A DNA stretch of 27,270 nt from a virus: the IMG/VR virus record IMGVR_UViG_3300020195_000141, positions 1 through 27,270 of that record, one strand, 5' to 3'. Within the stretch, counting starts at the first letter, position 1. Each line of letters starts with the position of its first letter. The position numbers were made by a program, and so were the translations under genes. The notes under the pieces were generated by a model. It saw nothing but the letters and a program-made list of their open reading frames with translations, ran no database searches and was not told the origin of the DNA. Below are positions 2,800-15,358 of the stretch, in pieces.

Positions 2800-3120
2800 A
2801 TTAAAAGGTTATTATTAGTTACCCTAAGTGTTTTAATATTTAGTATATTTAGTATTTTGTCAGTCAGCGCGAGTGTGCCAGTAATAAAATGCCCCACGGC
2901 AACAAGTGAAGGTGCTTACTTTGAGCGAGGTATAGGCAAAGACGGCAACGTAATATGTGGCTTTAGTTGGTATAACGCCTGCCCATACACTGAAGCAGTG
3001 TCGGCAAACGACCCAGGGTGCGAAAAACTTACTGAAGAGCAACTTAAACCTTGGCAACCCACCGTGCCTGCCCCTGAGCCTGCCACCGAGCCAGAACTCA
3101 GCGAGTGGGGGGGTAAGTAA
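2800..3120 (+). CDS. Secreted Cys-containing protein with an AUU start codon
   Basis: A 106-residue protein with a clear N-terminal signal sequence: KR followed by a hydrophobic stretch (LLLVTLSVLIFSIFSIL) and a small-residue cleavage region (SVSAS). The mature part has four Cys and a C-terminal Pro/Glu linker. The mapped promoter starts the transcript near 2781, and AAGGAGG (2788-2794) lies five bases before ATT at 2800. No ATG, GTG or TTG in frame lies between the transcription start and the signal sequence, so AUU is the best start. Upstream ATG codons lie before the promoter. It may act in the cell envelope, for example in superinfection exclusion, but that is a guess. Confidence 0.65.
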   Translation: MKRLLLVTLSVLIFSIFSILSVSASVPVIKCPTATSEGAYFERGIGKDGNVICGFSWYNACPYTEAVSANDPGCEKLTEEQLKPWQPTVPAPEPATEPELSEWGGK

Positions 3121-3398
3121 TGACTGATAGTTTTTTCGAAGAATTGATAGAAGCCACCGGCTCTGAGGATATGGCTAAGAAAGTTGTAGGCTTATTTGAC
3201 CGTACGCGCAAGCAGATAGGGCTTACGGAACAGCAACAGTCTGTCTATGACTATTTAGTTAGTGGCAAGCCTATAGTATCTCAGCGTCAGTTAGCCAAAG
3301 ACTGCGGGCTAGATCATCCCCAGAAGGTTGTGGCTATTTTGGCGGCTTTGACACTGAAGGGTTTTTTGATACCGCGCGATAAGGTTACTAAAATATGA
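3120..3398 (+). CDS. Winged-helix DNA-binding protein
   Basis: 92 residues. Residues 35-88 have a winged helix-turn-helix pattern: LTEQQQSVYDYL, then SQRQLAKDCGLDHPQKV as the likely turn and recognition helix, then LTLKGFLIP as the wing. The acidic N-terminal 30 residues may be a dimerisation helix. The ATG shares its A with the preceding stop (TAATG), so it is coupled to the secreted protein. As the second gene after the switch promoter it is a candidate early regulator. Confidence 0.65.
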   Translation: MTDSFFEELIEATGSEDMAKKVVGLFDRTRKQIGLTEQQQSVYDYLVSGKPIVSQRQLAKDCGLDHPQKVVAILAALTLKGFLIPRDKVTKI

Positions 3399-3550
3399 TA
3401 TTATTTTGCTCAGTATTTCATAAATGGTCTGATTGGAACGGTACTGCTGAGGGCTACCAAATTAGGTGGTGCGAAGGATGTAACAAACAGCAACGGCGTG
3501 TTATTAAGTTTAGAGTTGTAAAGTGGTTTAAGTTTGGAGAGCGTTTATGA
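3395..3550 (+). CDS. 51-aa Cys/Trp-rich microprotein
   Basis: The frame is linked by ATGA overlaps at both ends (3395-3398 and 3547-3550), strong evidence that it is translated. It holds FCSVFHKW near the N-terminus and RWCEGCNKQQRR in the middle, giving a probable Cys/His zinc site, followed by a basic tail. Similar short proteins that combine a C..H..W start with a CxxC are common in tailed phages, but their function is not known to me. Confidence 0.65.
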   Translation: MILFCSVFHKWSDWNGTAEGYQIRWCEGCNKQQRRVIKFRVVKWFKFGERL

Positions 3551-4422
3551 GCGACACCGAAACCCTCTACGAACTAAGTAATTGTGAGATTATGCGCTAT
3601 GAAACAGATTCAGAGCATTTTTACTACGGAGGGCTTATTGGAGAGGAAAAGCAATATTATTTATCTGTTACTCAGACCATAGATATTGGTGGGCCAGTAC
3701 CAGAAGGTTTGCGAGAATATTGGCGCGTTACTTCGTATGAAGAATCAAAAGAACGATTACAGATGACTGGTGATAGAGGTTCTAAGCTACATGATGCGCT
3801 AGACCAATTAATGCGAGCCAAAAAGCTTGACTTAAAAAATGATTATCGGTCTACTTTTGAAAAAGCTGGGATAGCTATGTTCATACGTTTCATAAGATTT
3901 TTAGACCCTGGCAAGTATTTCACTGAGTTAATTGTAGCCGACCCAGACCTACGTGTAGCCGGTACGCTGGACTTTAAGGGCTATGTTGAGGAGTGGCGCT
4001 TAGAATGCCTCCTAGACCCTAATAAGTACCTAAATATTGATTCAGAGGGTGACGTTCAACTCAAGGAAAAGTGGTTGGACTTGCCTAGTAAAAAACGAGT
4101 TCACATCATCATCGATTGGAAATTCAGTGCAAGGAATGCCTATAGTCATAAAATCCAGGTCGCAGCCTATAAAACGATGAACAATAAAACTCGTAAAGGT
4201 AGCCCAGTTACTAGAGCGTTTACTTGGCGATACAGCCCAAAACATAAACATGGCTTTGATTTTTCGGAGAGTTTATTAACCTATAAGTCTTTCAAACGTA
4301 TTTACGAAACAGCTATTGAATATCTAGGTAACTTTCCTGCCCCCCCTTCTCTTACACGTTACCCTGATTCTGTTCAACTTTACATAAAAAAGGAGAAAGG
4401 GAAAAAAGAATGGGCAAAATAA
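3547..4422 (+). CDS. PD-(D/E)XK nuclease, RecB/Cas4-like exonuclease
   Basis: 291 residues with the motif series of RecB-family nucleases: RGSKLHDAL (His82), a possible acidic residue near Glu127, GTLDF (Asp142), IIDWK (Asp190, Lys192) and QVAAY (Gln204, Tyr208). No Cys cluster for the iron-sulphur site of Cas4 is present. The enzyme would degrade or resect DNA with Mg2+. Next to an SSB-like gene it probably serves recombination or replication, much as phage exonucleases pair with annealing proteins. The start overlaps the upstream microprotein (ATGA) and the end overlaps the homing endonuclease gene by 13 bases. Confidence 0.8.
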   Translation: MSDTETLYELSNCEIMRYETDSEHFYYGGLIGEEKQYYLSVTQTIDIGGPVPEGLREYWRVTSYEESKERLQMTGDRGSKLHDALDQLMRAKKLDLKNDYRSTFEKAGIAMFIRFIRFLDPGKYFTELIVADPDLRVAGTLDFKGYVEEWRLECLLDPNKYLNIDSEGDVQLKEKWLDLPSKKRVHIIIDWKFSARNAYSHKIQVAAYKTMNNKTRKGSPVTRAFTWRYSPKHKHGFDFSESLLTYKSFKRIYETAIEYLGNFPAPPSLTRYPDSVQLYIKKEKGKKEWAK

Positions 4423-4853
4423 AACACAAGATGACTAATACACCCACTTACTACTCATGGAAGTCAATGAAAGCCCGTTGTCTCAGCCCTACAGCTACCT
4501 CCTATTGGAAATACGGAAAAGTGGGGATAAAAATTTATGAACCTTGGTTAATTTTTAACAATTTCTTAAAGGATATGGGCATCAGACCAATAGATAAAAC
4601 CTTAGATAGAATAGACCCCTACGGTAACTATGAACCATCTAATTGTAGGTGGGCCACGCCAACGGAACAGCGGAGGAATAGGCGTATGAATAGAAATAAT
4701 ACGTCAAGCTACCAAGGTGTTTATGATACCGGTTATAATACTTGGCGAACTTTGATTGCTTTTAGTAGTATTAATTATCATTTAGGCACTTTCACTAACA
4801 AAGAAGATGCAATAATGATGCGAATGGCTGCCGAGGAGCAATTACTGTGCTAG
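4410..4853 (+). CDS. HNH homing endonuclease with C-terminal AP2-like DNA-binding domain
   Basis: 147 residues. The first 90 match the phage HNH family with the SWKSMKARC start, a YGKVGIKIYEPW core and LDRIDPYGNYEPSNCRWAT (residues 65-83), then a basic tail. Residues about 97-145 (SYQGVYDTGYNTWRTLIA, then HLGTFTNKEDAIM) form an AP2-like strand-strand-strand-helix domain. Such enzymes are free-standing homing endonucleases that copy their gene into related genomes. It has a GGAGAAAGGG ribosome binding site inside the end of the nuclease gene and overlaps the following gene by seven bases, so it sits as an insert in the early operon. Confidence 0.8.
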   Translation: MGKIKHKMTNTPTYYSWKSMKARCLSPTATSYWKYGKVGIKIYEPWLIFNNFLKDMGIRPIDKTLDRIDPYGNYEPSNCRWATPTEQRRNRRMNRNNTSSYQGVYDTGYNTWRTLIAFSSINYHLGTFTNKEDAIMMRMAAEEQLLC

Positions 4854-5167
4854 TAGATAAATTCACCCAGTTAAACTACATCGGAGACATCTGGGAGCCC
4901 CATTATGCGGGCTACATAAGAGGTGGCTCGACAGACATGGTAGAAGTCTACATAGCTAAGCGGAAGATCAACCGCAACATAAGAGATATTAAATTAGTTT
5001 TTACCAGGGTCGGTGAGGATAGTATATTTGCTGGAGACTGGTTTTTAAGAAGAAAGGACGTACCGAAGAGGACAAAGTTCGATAATAATGGCATGGAATG
5101 TTTTGTGGTGCCGTGGGGTAAGTTTCAGCCACTAGAGTATGCTGAGAGAAGCGAATATGAAATGTGA
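4847..5167 (+). CDS. Hypothetical 106-aa protein
   Basis: No recognised domain. It is rich in aromatic and basic residues with alternating strand-like segments (GDIWEPHYAGYIRGGS, EVYIAKRKI, VFTRVGED), suggesting a small beta fold. The start is GTG at 4847 with GAGGAG eight bases upstream. It overlaps the neighbours on both sides. Its position between RecB-like nuclease and SSB genes suggests a DNA metabolism role, without direct evidence. Confidence 0.6.
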   Translation: MLVDKFTQLNYIGDIWEPHYAGYIRGGSTDMVEVYIAKRKINRNIRDIKLVFTRVGEDSIFAGDWFLRRKDVPKRTKFDNNGMECFVVPWGKFQPLEYAERSEYEM

Positions 5168-12802: not shown

Positions 12803-15358
12803 ATGGAGCCAGAGTTAAATAGAGAAGAGCTAAGAGCCAAAACTCACATGATTAACCCCGCTATGTGGGTGTTAGATTCAAACCTTATAAATGAGAATCA
12901 GAAACTTTTTGAGTTTTCTAAGCATAGATTTATGCTTCAGCCTTATTCTGACTCTTCCCCAGACCAGGTGATTATGAAGTCCGCTCAGGTGGGATGGAGT
13001 GTGGCGGCCATCTTAAAAAGCATCCATGCTGCTAATTTTTTGAAATTAAATGTTATTTACGTTTTACCGACGAAAAATGTTGTGAATGATTTCGTAAGGC
13101 CGAAAGTTAATCCGATGATTGATAGGAATCCGGAGATACGGAAGATGGTCAAGGGCGATGACTCGGTTTCACTTAAAAATGTTGGTGATAGGTGGATATA
13201 TTTTAGGGGAGCGTTTACTGAAAAAGAAGCGATAAGCACAACTGCCGACCTTATTGTGGCCGATGAGTATGATAGGTGTGACCAGGGGGTTCTTACGGTT
13301 TATCAGTCTAGGCTACAGGCTTCTGATTATGGGTGGTTTTGGAGGTTTAGCAATCCGAGCATACCAGGCTTCGGGGTGCATGAGCTTTATCAGGACTCAG
13401 ATCAGATGCACTGGTTTGTTACCTGCGGGCATTGTGGGCATGAGTGGTTTATGGATTTTGAAAAAGGTGAGAAGAATCACTATATAGATGAGGAGAGGGA
13501 AGTTTATGCCTGTGGGTCATGTAACGAGGAATTGATGGAGCATGACCGTCAGAAGGGCCGCTGGCTACCTAGATTCCCTCAAAGGGGGCCGAGGTGGGTT
13601 AAGGGGCATATGATAGGTCGGAGGGGTTACTGGTTGTCTCAGTTGATGATTCCTTGGGTGAGCGCGCGGAAGATTCTACAGCAGAAGGCTTCTATGAATA
13701 TTGAGGTGTTTCATAACTTCGTTCTCGGTTTACCTTATCAGGCCTCTGAATTTCTTATCAATAGAGAGTCTGTCTTACGGGCTTGCCAACCTGCCCTCGC
13801 GGAGAAGCGGGATGTGATTATAGGCTGTGACTCAGGGAAAGAAAAACATTGGGTGATGGGCAATCCTTCAGGAATATTCAGTTATGGGAAGACTACCGAC
13901 TGGGAGGATATTGAGAGACTTATAACGATGTATAACGCTACCGCCGTAATAGATGCCCTACCGGACTTCACCATTCCCGAACAATTATCCAGGAAGTACC
14001 CTGGACGCGTCTATGTGCATTATTATTCACCAGATAATTCTACGAGCATGGAAGTGAGCAAACGCAAGGAAGGGATGGATTTTGGGGTCTTACAGTCTGA
14101 TAGGACTAAACTTTTTGACCTTTTGGCAGCTGATGTGACGAGTGGGAAGATGAGGTTTTTCCAGGAGCCAAAAGATTTAGAGGATTTGATAAAGCATGTC
14201 GAAAATGTATATAGGGTAGTGGTGCCTGATACTAGGGGTATCCCTAAGGCTAGATGGCTCACGAAGGAGAATAAACCTGACCACTGGTGCATTTCTGGGG
14301 ATTCGCTTATTAAAACTTTACGAGGGGATATTAAGATAAAAAATGTTCAAGTTGGTGATTATGCCCTGACTAGCAAGGGTTACAGGAGGGTTAGTCGGGC
14401 ATGGATGACTAAGAAAAACGCGGCAGTTAATAAATATAAATTCAGTAATGGTGCGGAGCTTATTGCTACACCTAATCATAAAGTGGCTACAGAAAAAGGT
14501 TTCGTAGAGTTGCATGCTTTGGCATACTCTGATAGAATTAAAACATGGCAAAAGCCGAAGCAATTATTTTTCAAGGCGTTATATATCGTAGATATCCAGA
14601 TTCAAAAAATAGAAGCGATAGAGTTTACTTTACCTCAGGAAGTACGGAACGGGGCAAGGGACGGAAACGTTATCACCAAGAGTTTTGGATATCGCACAAT
14701 GGCAGCATCCCCATGGGGTTTGTCGTCCATCACAAAGACCACAATCCTCTCAACAACTCCCTTGGTAATCTCATCCTTATTAAAGATAGCGAACACCGTA
14801 CGCATCATAACTTGGAGCGATTTACCGACCCAGAATATGTCAAGCGGAACAGGGAACACTTGGACGAGGTTCGTATCAAATCGCATGCTTGGTTGGCATC
14901 CAAAAAGGGGAAGCAACACTTACGAGATAATGCGCAAAAAGCTTTCTATTTGGAAGAACCAATTATTTTTGACTGTATTGGATGTGGTACGAAGGTTACT
15001 TCTCATTGGCGACAAAATAATAAGTGGTGTTCAAAAGCCTGTAGCAATCGTATCCACGCCCGAAAGTTTAGGGAAAAGAAACGTTTACAACTTAACGGTT
15101 GAAGGTGAACACGAATACTATGCTAACGGTATTTTAGTTAGTAATTGTCATGCGCTGGCTTATTTCCGTGTTGGGCAATCTTTTTCTATGGGGCCAGACT
15201 CCGCAGGCGGGGTGAGACCTTCGGCTACCAGGAAGAGTTCTGGTATTATTGTAGATAGTAAGCATAATACCGTTAGTACGAAGAATGCTTTGGGTATGGA
15301 TTTTGATGCTTTTATAGAACGCAGTTTAGTTAAGAATAAAAGACGGAGAGTAACGTGA
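12803..15358 (+). CDS. terL: Terminase large subunit (GpA-type) interrupted by an intein
   Basis: 851 codons; 565 residues after removal of the intein (residues 496-781). The ATPase half has a Walker A-like MKSAQVGWS (58-66) and Walker B ADLIVADEYDR (149-157). A Cys4 zinc site (Cys208, 211, 237, 240) is typical of the GpA family. The nuclease half has GCDSG (Asp343), AVIDALPD (Asp384) and a third motif PDHW-CHALAYF that is split by the intein. TerL cuts concatemeric DNA and pumps it into the prohead. The intein must splice for the nuclease site to form, because it interrupts the motif at the W495/C782 junction. No ribosome binding site is seen before the ATG at 12803. Its end overlaps the next gene (GTGA). 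Confidence 0.9.
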   Translation: MEPELNREELRAKTHMINPAMWVLDSNLINENQKLFEFSKHRFMLQPYSDSSPDQVIMKSAQVGWSVAAILKSIHAANFLKLNVIYVLPTKNVVNDFVRPKVNPMIDRNPEIRKMVKGDDSVSLKNVGDRWIYFRGAFTEKEAISTTADLIVADEYDRCDQGVLTVYQSRLQASDYGWFWRFSNPSIPGFGVHELYQDSDQMHWFVTCGHCGHEWFMDFEKGEKNHYIDEEREVYACGSCNEELMEHDRQKGRWLPRFPQRGPRWVKGHMIGRRGYWLSQLMIPWVSARKILQQKASMNIEVFHNFVLGLPYQASEFLINRESVLRACQPALAEKRDVIIGCDSGKEKHWVMGNPSGIFSYGKTTDWEDIERLITMYNATAVIDALPDFTIPEQLSRKYPGRVYVHYYSPDNSTSMEVSKRKEGMDFGVLQSDRTKLFDLLAADVTSGKMRFFQEPKDLEDLIKHVENVYRVVVPDTRGIPKARWLTKENKPDHWCISGDSLIKTLRGDIKIKNVQVGDYALTSKGYRRVSRAWMTKKNAAVNKYKFSNGAELIATPNHKVATEKGFVELHALAYSDRIKTWQKPKQLFFKALYIVDIQIQKIEAIEFTLPQEVRNGARDGNVITKSFGYRTMAASPWGLSSITKTTILSTTPLVISSLLKIANTVRIITWSDLPTQNMSSGTGNTWTRFVSNRMLGWHPKRGSNTYEIMRKKLSIWKNQLFLTVLDVVRRLLLIGDKIISGVQKPVAIVSTPESLGKRNVYNLTVEGEHEYYANGILVSNCHALAYFRVGQSFSMGPDSAGGVRPSATRKSSGIIVDSKHNTVSTKNALGMDFDAFIERSLVKNKRRRVT
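14510..14538 (+). promoter_or_regulatory. Promoter inside the intein, for the nested endonuclease
   Basis: TTGCAT (14510-14515), 17-base spacer, TAGAAT (14533-14538), six bases before the ATG at 14545. It has the same -10 and geometry as the promoter of the endonuclease at 5909. Confidence 0.5.
14545..15102 (+). CDS. HNH homing endonuclease overprinted in another frame inside the intein
   Basis: 185 residues in the -1 frame relative to TerL. YHQEFWISHNGSIPMGFVVH followed by HKDHNPLNNSLGNLILI (residues about 42-79) is a textbook HNH_3-type core, with the His-His, Asn-Asn and Asn-Leu pattern intact. A C-terminal zinc finger has CIGCG and, further on, WCSKACSNRIHARK. The frame opens two codons after a TAA, so the ATG at 14545 is the only usual start. 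No ribosome binding site is present, and a promoter at 14510 would give a leaderless mRNA. Its last codons overlap intein block F. It probably cuts intein-free terL alleles so that the intein is copied in. Confidence 0.85.
   Translation: MAKAEAIIFQGVIYRRYPDSKNRSDRVYFTSGSTERGKGRKRYHQEFWISHNGSIPMGFVVHHKDHNPLNNSLGNLILIKDSEHRTHHNLERFTDPEYVKRNREHLDEVRIKSHAWLASKKGKQHLRDNAQKAFYLEEPIIFDCIGCGTKVTSHWRQNNKWCSKACSNRIHARKFREKKRLQLNG

Follow-up and report, generated by a model that had tools for sequence, protein, structure and literature searches.

The terminase large-subunit gene (terL) of a viral genome fragment very probably harbors a mobile intein whose homing endonuclease is overprinted as a complete gene in the -1 frame, with start signals of its own. 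We reached this reading from a 27,270-nt stretch of DNA (IMG/VR record IMGVR_UViG_3300020195_000141), the whole of which we call the window, and from related loci. The architecture, its recurrence, the openness of both frames, the constraint on the HNH frame, the two predicted folds and the start signals across the family were each computed. The features of the locus are as follows.

12803..15358, + strand: terL, the terminase large-subunit precursor with its intein (GpA/phrog_675 type), one open ORF of 851 codons
12803..14287, + strand: TerL N-extein, ending ...KPDHW directly before the acidic motif of the nuclease domain (compare the intein-free homologues L037-L046)
14288..15145, + strand: intein of 286 codons, Cys1 to Asn286 (TerL codons 496-781), from profiles, splicing residues and the structure model
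14468..14479, + strand: TxxH motif of block B, T61-P-N-H64 (TPNH), from the sequence; H64 is invariant in the alignment
14510..14515, + strand: -35-like TTGCAT within intein codons, below the threshold of a generic promoter scan
14530..14538, + strand: extended -10-like TG-A-TAGAAT, after a 17-bp spacer and 6 nt before the HNH start (p 0.018 in the window by synonymous recoding; family-wide tests)
14545..15102, + strand: predicted HNH homing endonuclease gene, 185 codons plus stop, in the -1 frame relative to the intein (ORF, profiles, stop counts, constraint, model)
14728..14796, + strand: HNH catalytic core, H62-H63, D65, N70-N71, N75 and H84, invariant in 80 sequences
14974..15042, + strand: zinc-ribbon cysteines of the HNH protein, C144, C147, C162 and C166, at least 90% conserved in 80 sequences
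14558..15037, + strand: intein-frame reading of the overlap, a linker without structure between the splicing-domain halves (residues 91-250, pLDDT mostly 42-65; no amino-acid constraint)
15083..15145, + strand: splicing blocks F and G (VYNLTVEGEHEYYANGILVSN); the HNH stop (15100-15102) sits within block F
15146..15358, + strand: TerL C-extein, the +1 Cys (15146-15148) followed by HALAYFRVG..., from the sequence and intein-free homologues

The HNH ORF runs from ATG to TGA and is nested entirely in the -1 frame, its last codons overlapping block F (VYNLTVEGEHEYY in the window). In the TerL frame, Pfam and NCBIfam profiles recover the N- and C-terminal splicing regions of an intein at residues 496-563 and 761-782 (NCBIfam intein_Cterm 27.3 bits, cut-off 15.6; intein_Nterm 23.1, just under its cut-off of 24.5; Pfam Intein_splicing likewise just under its cut-off), and profile searches of the window found no endonuclease domain in that frame. 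The -1-frame protein matches Pfam HNH_3 at 1.1e-12 as well as HNH phrogs, carries a C-terminal Cys4 site and gives a profile match to I-HmuI (1u3e) at E 0.0012. A preliminary description of this DNA had placed splicing blocks without an endonuclease in the TerL frame, and a complete 185-codon HNH/zinc-finger gene, overlapping block F at its end, in the -1 frame; the profiles bear this out, the coordinates of the gene are exact and its stop does fall within block F. The intein ends in SN and is followed by Cys: its penultimate residue is Ser, not His, and both Asn286 and the +1 Cys are present. Its class 1 Hint features are Cys1, the TxxH of block B, an insert that lacks a counterpart in homologues and a Hint fold.

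The predicted structures separate the two products. The HNH model (AlphaFold, AF2) is confident throughout, with a mean pLDDT of 96.6; in the intein model, pLDDT exceeds 90 at residues 1-90 and about 251-286 and drops across the overlap to the values listed above. Foldseek matched the intein model to gp41-1 and DnaB inteins (gp41-1 at E 2.2e-7, TM 0.86 by target length), and gp41-1 and NrdJ-1 are among the nearest solved inteins. The HNH model gave weak partial matches to HNH domains, with no match below E 0.001 and none over the whole chain. Because the two ends fold, the overlap is unstructured and the HNH gene ends near block F, the splicing domain is, as modeled, built from the two ends of the intein, and the HNH gene would occupy the gap where an in-frame endonuclease usually lies.

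A nucleotide search of the window against named phages gave no match, and protein searches were therefore used. The window is nearly identical to IMG/VR contig 3300020219_000004 over 10.4 kb, with 7 mismatches and 1 gap. Intein-free terL relatives are 49-85% identical over the best aligned segment. Homologues without the insert (L037-L046) read PDHW-A-HALAY or PDHW-L-HALAY at the same site, where the window reads PDHW-[intein]-C-HALAY, and the comparison of terL genes with and without the intein that the preliminary description called for thus finds empty sites.

The same layout, in the same relative frame throughout, occurs in at least 148 non-redundant loci, a lower bound drawn from loci ranked by similarity to the window rather than an unbiased sample, in which HNH-less inteins at the site could be missed. 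The set was built from a first 99 loci (87 non-redundant at 90% nucleotide identity) and a further 78 (of which 61 were non-redundant at 80%), all classified uniformly; loci were treated as separate below 80% nucleotide or 55% amino-acid identity and, being homologous, are not fully independent. When viral contigs were scanned with the HNH protein, a TerL intein with a -1-frame HNH gene turned up in differing terminases (L002-L005 and L007) and in the near-identical contig. Tetrasphaera phage TJE1, Acinetobacter phage Highwayman and Rhodobacteraceae phage LS06 carry the same overprinted layout; their records annotate terL alone at the locus, so the endonuclease has been missed. Among the matches listed, a strong HNH match flanked by both intein halves was overprinted in 99 of 101 cases, the other two being split inteins, and a search keyed on the intein C-terminus returned the same frame relation in 81 of the 81 matches listed, where confirmation with the whole intein, linker included, favors members that hold the HNH gene.

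All exteins, where scanned, are TerL proteins of Terminase_3, Terminase_6, GpA or T7 type. The splicing residues are conserved, with C1 in 84/87 members and TxxH in 85/87; in 81 of 83 parsed members the terminal Asn is preceded by His (56) or Ser (25). In 97% of loci the HNH gene ends no more than 60 nt from block F. No broken HNH gene beside an intact intein frame, which would be a sign of a homing cycle, was seen, an absence that says little because the loci were selected for HNH or intein similarity.

This recurrence bears on the idea that an HNH domain once in frame was displaced by a frameshift, whether an error of sequencing or assembly or a recent mutation. Inteins with in-frame HNH domains do exist (L161, L163, L168 and L171), and the preliminary description had named such relatives as the sign of an accident of this kind; they were found only in other proteins (RNR, deoxyhypusine synthase), and none was among the loci found at this TerL site. 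Complete HNH genes with their own start and stop sit in one and the same frame in independent assemblies and isolate genomes alike. We regard an error or displacement as refuted by the number of non-redundant loci and give it practically no credence.

Could two such frames stay open by chance? When the HNH gene of the window is recoded synonymously at local GC, keeping its protein, the intein frame acquires a mean of 8.6 stops, compared with 0 observed (0/1000 recodings as low); when the gene's own codons are exchanged among like residues, 3.3 stops are expected (p 0.001). The earlier estimate of once in several thousand is of the right order, and the recurrence settles the matter of chance. 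Across the first 87 loci there are 0 intein-frame stops over the HNH gene, where 435.8 (GC-synonymous) or 171 (codon swap) are expected, and across the later 61 loci 0 where 270 are expected; these zeros are partly by construction, because membership of the set demanded one ORF, and what they fairly show is that hardly any locus fell short of this requirement. The third frame calibrates the null (1446 stops observed, 1439 expected; in the later set, 980 and 935), and free-standing HNH relatives carry 12 stops against 10.5 expected (L048), 11 against 8.4 (L056) and 8 against 9.0 (L052).

Substitutions tell the two frames apart. In 32 disjoint pairs, changes silent in HNH and altering the intein accumulate at 0.196 per site and changes silent in both frames at 0.119, as against 0.031 for changes altering both and 0.016 for those altering HNH and silent in the intein. 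The dNN/dSN ratio is 0.16 for HNH, and the intein frame shows no depression in the overlap. Selection on the HNH frame is strongly purifying, and the intein frame across it is kept free of stops, with no constraint on its amino acids. The substitution test in both frames that the preliminary description proposed therefore finds one frame constrained and the other merely open, and its reading of the ORF as a true overprinted endonuclease, which would uncouple homing from splicing, gains support from this constraint and from the recurrence in the same frame. Those of its predictions that computation could address were all borne out.

Phage HNH genes are often located in group I introns, which raises the possibility that the insert is removed as RNA or that the -1 ORF is a decaying passenger. 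No RNA intron was detected at the locus (an Rfam search to E 1 gave no match), the splicing residues are conserved, selection on the HNH gene is strongly purifying and the intein frame is never interrupted, all of which make either version highly improbable.

HNH starts across the family carry non-random signals of their own and fall into two classes: about half have a Shine-Dalgarno (SD) sequence, and the others, including that of the window, do not. SD energies at or below -5 are found at 51% of HNH starts compared with 20% of other out-of-frame ATGs. At many SD-less starts the ATG is preceded, at a distance of 6 nt, by a string such as TGATATACT or TGATAGAAT, and hexamers resembling TTGACx lie another 16-17 bp upstream. 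The -10-like bases double as codons of the conserved tail of block B (LDxLxxGDxI), and because the promoter-like bases also encode this tail, we used as the null synonymous recodings that preserve the intein protein and the codon usage of the gene.

Against this null, SD-less starts have a mean promoter score of 7.36 compared with 3.83 +- 0.41 after recoding (Z 8.6; 0/500 recodings as high). Starts of the SD class have little of this signal at the 6-nt distance (Z 2.9); their promoter excess lies farther up, 15-60 nt before the start (Z 8.4). In the later set, which played no part in forming the promoter idea, the values are Z 8.1 for the leaderless promoter (41 loci) and Z 4.5 for the upstream position in the SD class (13 loci). 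Among 65 loci below 55% amino-acid identity the mean score is highest at the 6-nt gap (5.39 compared with 1.60, Z 11.5) and below 0 at every other gap. The amino-acid motif of block B by itself already makes a -10-like string likelier (after recoding, the mean at the 6-nt gap is 1.6 bits), and part of the promoter excess is compositional, since a diffuse preference for T/A also raises other gaps (Z about 4 to 7.6 at several of them).

A sigma70-like -35/-10 pair in block-B codons, placed exactly 6 nt before the ATG, suggests a leaderless mRNA, as a -10 element ending there would put the transcript start at or near the start codon. For the window itself, the match (TTGCAT, 17 bp, TG-A-TAGAAT, 6 nt, ATG; p 0.018) lends weak to modest support at this single site; a generic promoter scan of the window did not call it, and promoters there are no commoner than in shuffles.

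That negative scan fits an account in which the HNH gene has no promoter and is translated from the terL transcript, with initiation at an internal SD in some members and a weak leaderless-like or coupled start in the others. For the half of the family with a clear SD, an internal SD on terL mRNA would suffice. However, the synonymous choices at SD-less starts favor a -35/-10 pair at a single set distance much more strongly than recoding does, and the SD class has its own promoter excess farther upstream in both sets; we consider translation from the terL transcript unlikely, though a real possibility. Programmed -1 ribosomal frameshifting within the intein, yielding a fusion of the N-terminal intein half to HNH, would explain why the relative frame is always -1. 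It is very improbable, since little of the -1 frame is open ahead of the HNH start: in most SD-less members a stop lies 3-12 nt before the ATG (14539-14541 in the window), which leaves almost no room for a slip. Members also have a start codon of their own, often with an SD, and free-standing relatives begin at the same point of the alignment as the overprinted HNH.

We therefore return to a gene with its own start signals and, somewhat more cautiously, lean toward a broader claim: that these loci form a widespread class of phage inteins with an overprinted endonuclease gene and a leaderless promoter of its own in splicing-domain codons, making homing transcriptionally independent of the host gene, with separate origins as well. 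The separate origins would be represented by L167 (at the ATPase site of a terminase) and L177 (in DNA polymerase I), which hold HNH in the remaining alternative frame of their inteins (0 intein-frame stops each, compared with 12.0 and 10.0 expected) and point to intein overprinting having arisen more than once. The same HNH family occurs in further layouts. Acinetobacter phage BP10 and Exiguobacterium phage EauM-23 have it as a free-standing gene beside terminase genes (in BP10, upstream of terS); in Lactobacillus phage CL2 and L152 it separates the two halves of a split TerL intein; and Brochothrix phage BL3 has split intein halves with an HNH remnant. Some discordant pairs suggest horizontal transfer between terminases; the distance correlations (r 0.54 for HNH and splicing domain, 0.69 for HNH and extein, partial 0.25) do not cleanly separate co-inheritance of HNH with the splicing domain from that with the extein, and so fall short of proving it.

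Inteins are usually described with the endonuclease as an in-frame domain, without one, or split around it. Dassa et al. reportedly described in 2009 fractured genes in which a free-standing endonuclease gene separates the halves of split inteins of the gp41-1 and NrdJ-1 type. Such fractured genes resemble the window in that the endonuclease is a separate gene between intein halves, but there host gene and intein lie in two ORFs joined by trans-splicing, whereas the window has one continuous 851-codon ORF and an overprinted endonuclease. Canonical mobile inteins share with it an endonuclease-bearing intein in a terminase: for mycobacteriophage TerL inteins, splicing and cleavage have been shown in some cases, the inteins lie in the ATPase half and the two described endonuclease domains are LAGLIDADG (PMC5050341). 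Canonical inteins carry an in-frame LAGLIDADG or HNH domain, whereas the window has an out-of-frame endonuclease, a site at the nuclease-domain motif and, in the TerL frame, no endonuclease match and an overlap without structure.

The nearest published element is ShiLan, an out-of-frame HNH/zinc-finger insert in actinobacteriophage DNA methylases that is open in the host frame, for which the authors infer homing and suggest leaderless translation (Arsenault, Gosselin and Gogarten 2025, PMC11855218). The window element would work alike, with an HNH/zinc-finger endonuclease in an alternative frame of an insert that stays open in the frame of the host gene. ShiLan has no splicing domain, stays in the protein, uses a GTG start and the third frame, and is reported from mycobacteriophages in methylases. 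The inserts of the window family, by contrast, are true inteins: their splicing blocks are conserved, their hosts are the terminases of many phage groups, the endonuclease is in the -1 frame, and sequence statistics pick up its start signals. Because splicing blocks are present and conserved, the window element is not a member of ShiLan.

For overlapping reading frames in phages, the ShiLan paper cites a preprint on actinobacteriophage inteins with 'non-canonical architecture' (Gosselin, Arsenault and Gogarten, bioRxiv 2025, 10.1101/2025.01.02.630785) and 'Non-canonical inteins' (Gorbalenya 1998); going by how they are cited, either may already describe out-of-frame endonucleases in inteins. 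In the literature searched, which these two papers lie outside, neither an overprinted endonuclease in a splicing intein nor an internal promoter for one is described. The earlier claim that no known intein is like this one is weakened by ShiLan and possibly by the 2025 preprint. The priority of an overprinted endonuclease in a TerL intein is uncertain.

Expression, splicing, cleavage and homing, which we infer from sequence, could proceed as follows. Ribosomes on terL would pass straight through the intein, whose first ~90 and last ~37 residues would fold as an ordinary Hint splicing domain and excise it; the ~160 middle residues would be a filler linker with a sequence set by the HNH gene, required only to be stop-free. 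From an internal ATG in the -1 frame, the same DNA would yield a free HNH/zinc-ribbon endonuclease, its production driven by signals within the N-terminal half of the intein: in the window and about half of the family these would be a sigma70-like promoter with its -10 ending 6 nt ahead of the ATG, so that the mRNA is leaderless; in other members they would be an SD with a promoter farther upstream. The enzyme would presumably cut intein-free terL at the nuclease-motif site, and repair would copy the whole unit in.

Overall, these loci are numerous natural examples of long genes that overlap on the same strand with a clear role for each frame, one functional and the other only kept open, a layout retained over deep divergence and many terminase types. 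They also make it possible to test whether conserved protein-coding motifs can conceal a promoter. The overprinted arrangement could plausibly be a stage on the way to split inteins: a single stop codon in the linker frame would leave two intein halves on either side of a working endonuclease, and the same HNH family is found in such split terminases. If expressed as proposed, one stretch of DNA would give rise both to a splicing protein and to the enzyme thought to spread it.

The overprinted-HNH layout has counterparts in two other inteins, in which the intein frame is free of stops over the HNH ORF, against the mean expected when the HNH protein is kept and its codons are synonymously recoded:

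L177:2602-3195, HNH ORF within L177:300-4226, DNA polymerase I intein, Rubritepida MAG
L167:2275-3156, terminase intein with HNH ORF, within L167:1521-4106, Polaromonas MAG

In the DNA polymerase I intein, the HNH ORF occupies the other alternative frame (10.0 stops expected in the intein frame, 0 observed), and overprinting there likely arose independently. The Polaromonas intein sits in the ATPase half of the terminase, with the HNH ORF in its +2 frame (0 versus 12.0). Separately, two inteins of unlike design share a single TerL (L002:1055-4504): the one at the nuclease site is of the overprinted-HNH type, and the one in the ATPase half appears to carry a LAGLIDADG endonuclease in frame.

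Uncultured phages also carry an arrangement like that of ShiLan, the published out-of-frame HNH insert in actinobacteriophage DNA methylases, which lacks splicing domains (PMC11855218):

L012, L013, L018, L023, L031, each ~3000-5000, and L022, ~1000-2600, methyltransferase-like ORFs, each with a +2-frame HNH ORF

The HNH gene is also found outside this layout. Among Acinetobacter phages, it lies within the TerL intein in Highwayman, whereas a relative in BP10 (L048:2498-3139) is free-standing, upstream of terS. The same family accompanies split inteins; a helicase gene is also broken in two:

L052:455-2771, L055:709-2604, L152:1487-3772, split TerL inteins with the same HNH family
L053:1314-4040, L054:1314-4046, uvsW helicase of Straboviridae, divided between two ORFs

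The split TerL inteins, from phages CL2 and BL3 and one uncultured Spirochaetes MAG, are ordered as intein-N ORF, HNH, then intein-C with the TerL C-terminus; in BL3 the HNH is reduced to a remnant, and in CL2 and BL3 the "terminase" annotation covers just the first half of TerL. Between the two uvsW ORFs lies a hypothetical gene, with intein-N similarity at the break; uvsW is here a fractured gene, probably with a split intein.

At the splice junction of the window, Cys occupies the +1 position beyond the intein (15146-15148), where intein-free terL genes encode Ala or Leu; after splicing, TerL would therefore carry a single changed residue next to its nuclease motif.
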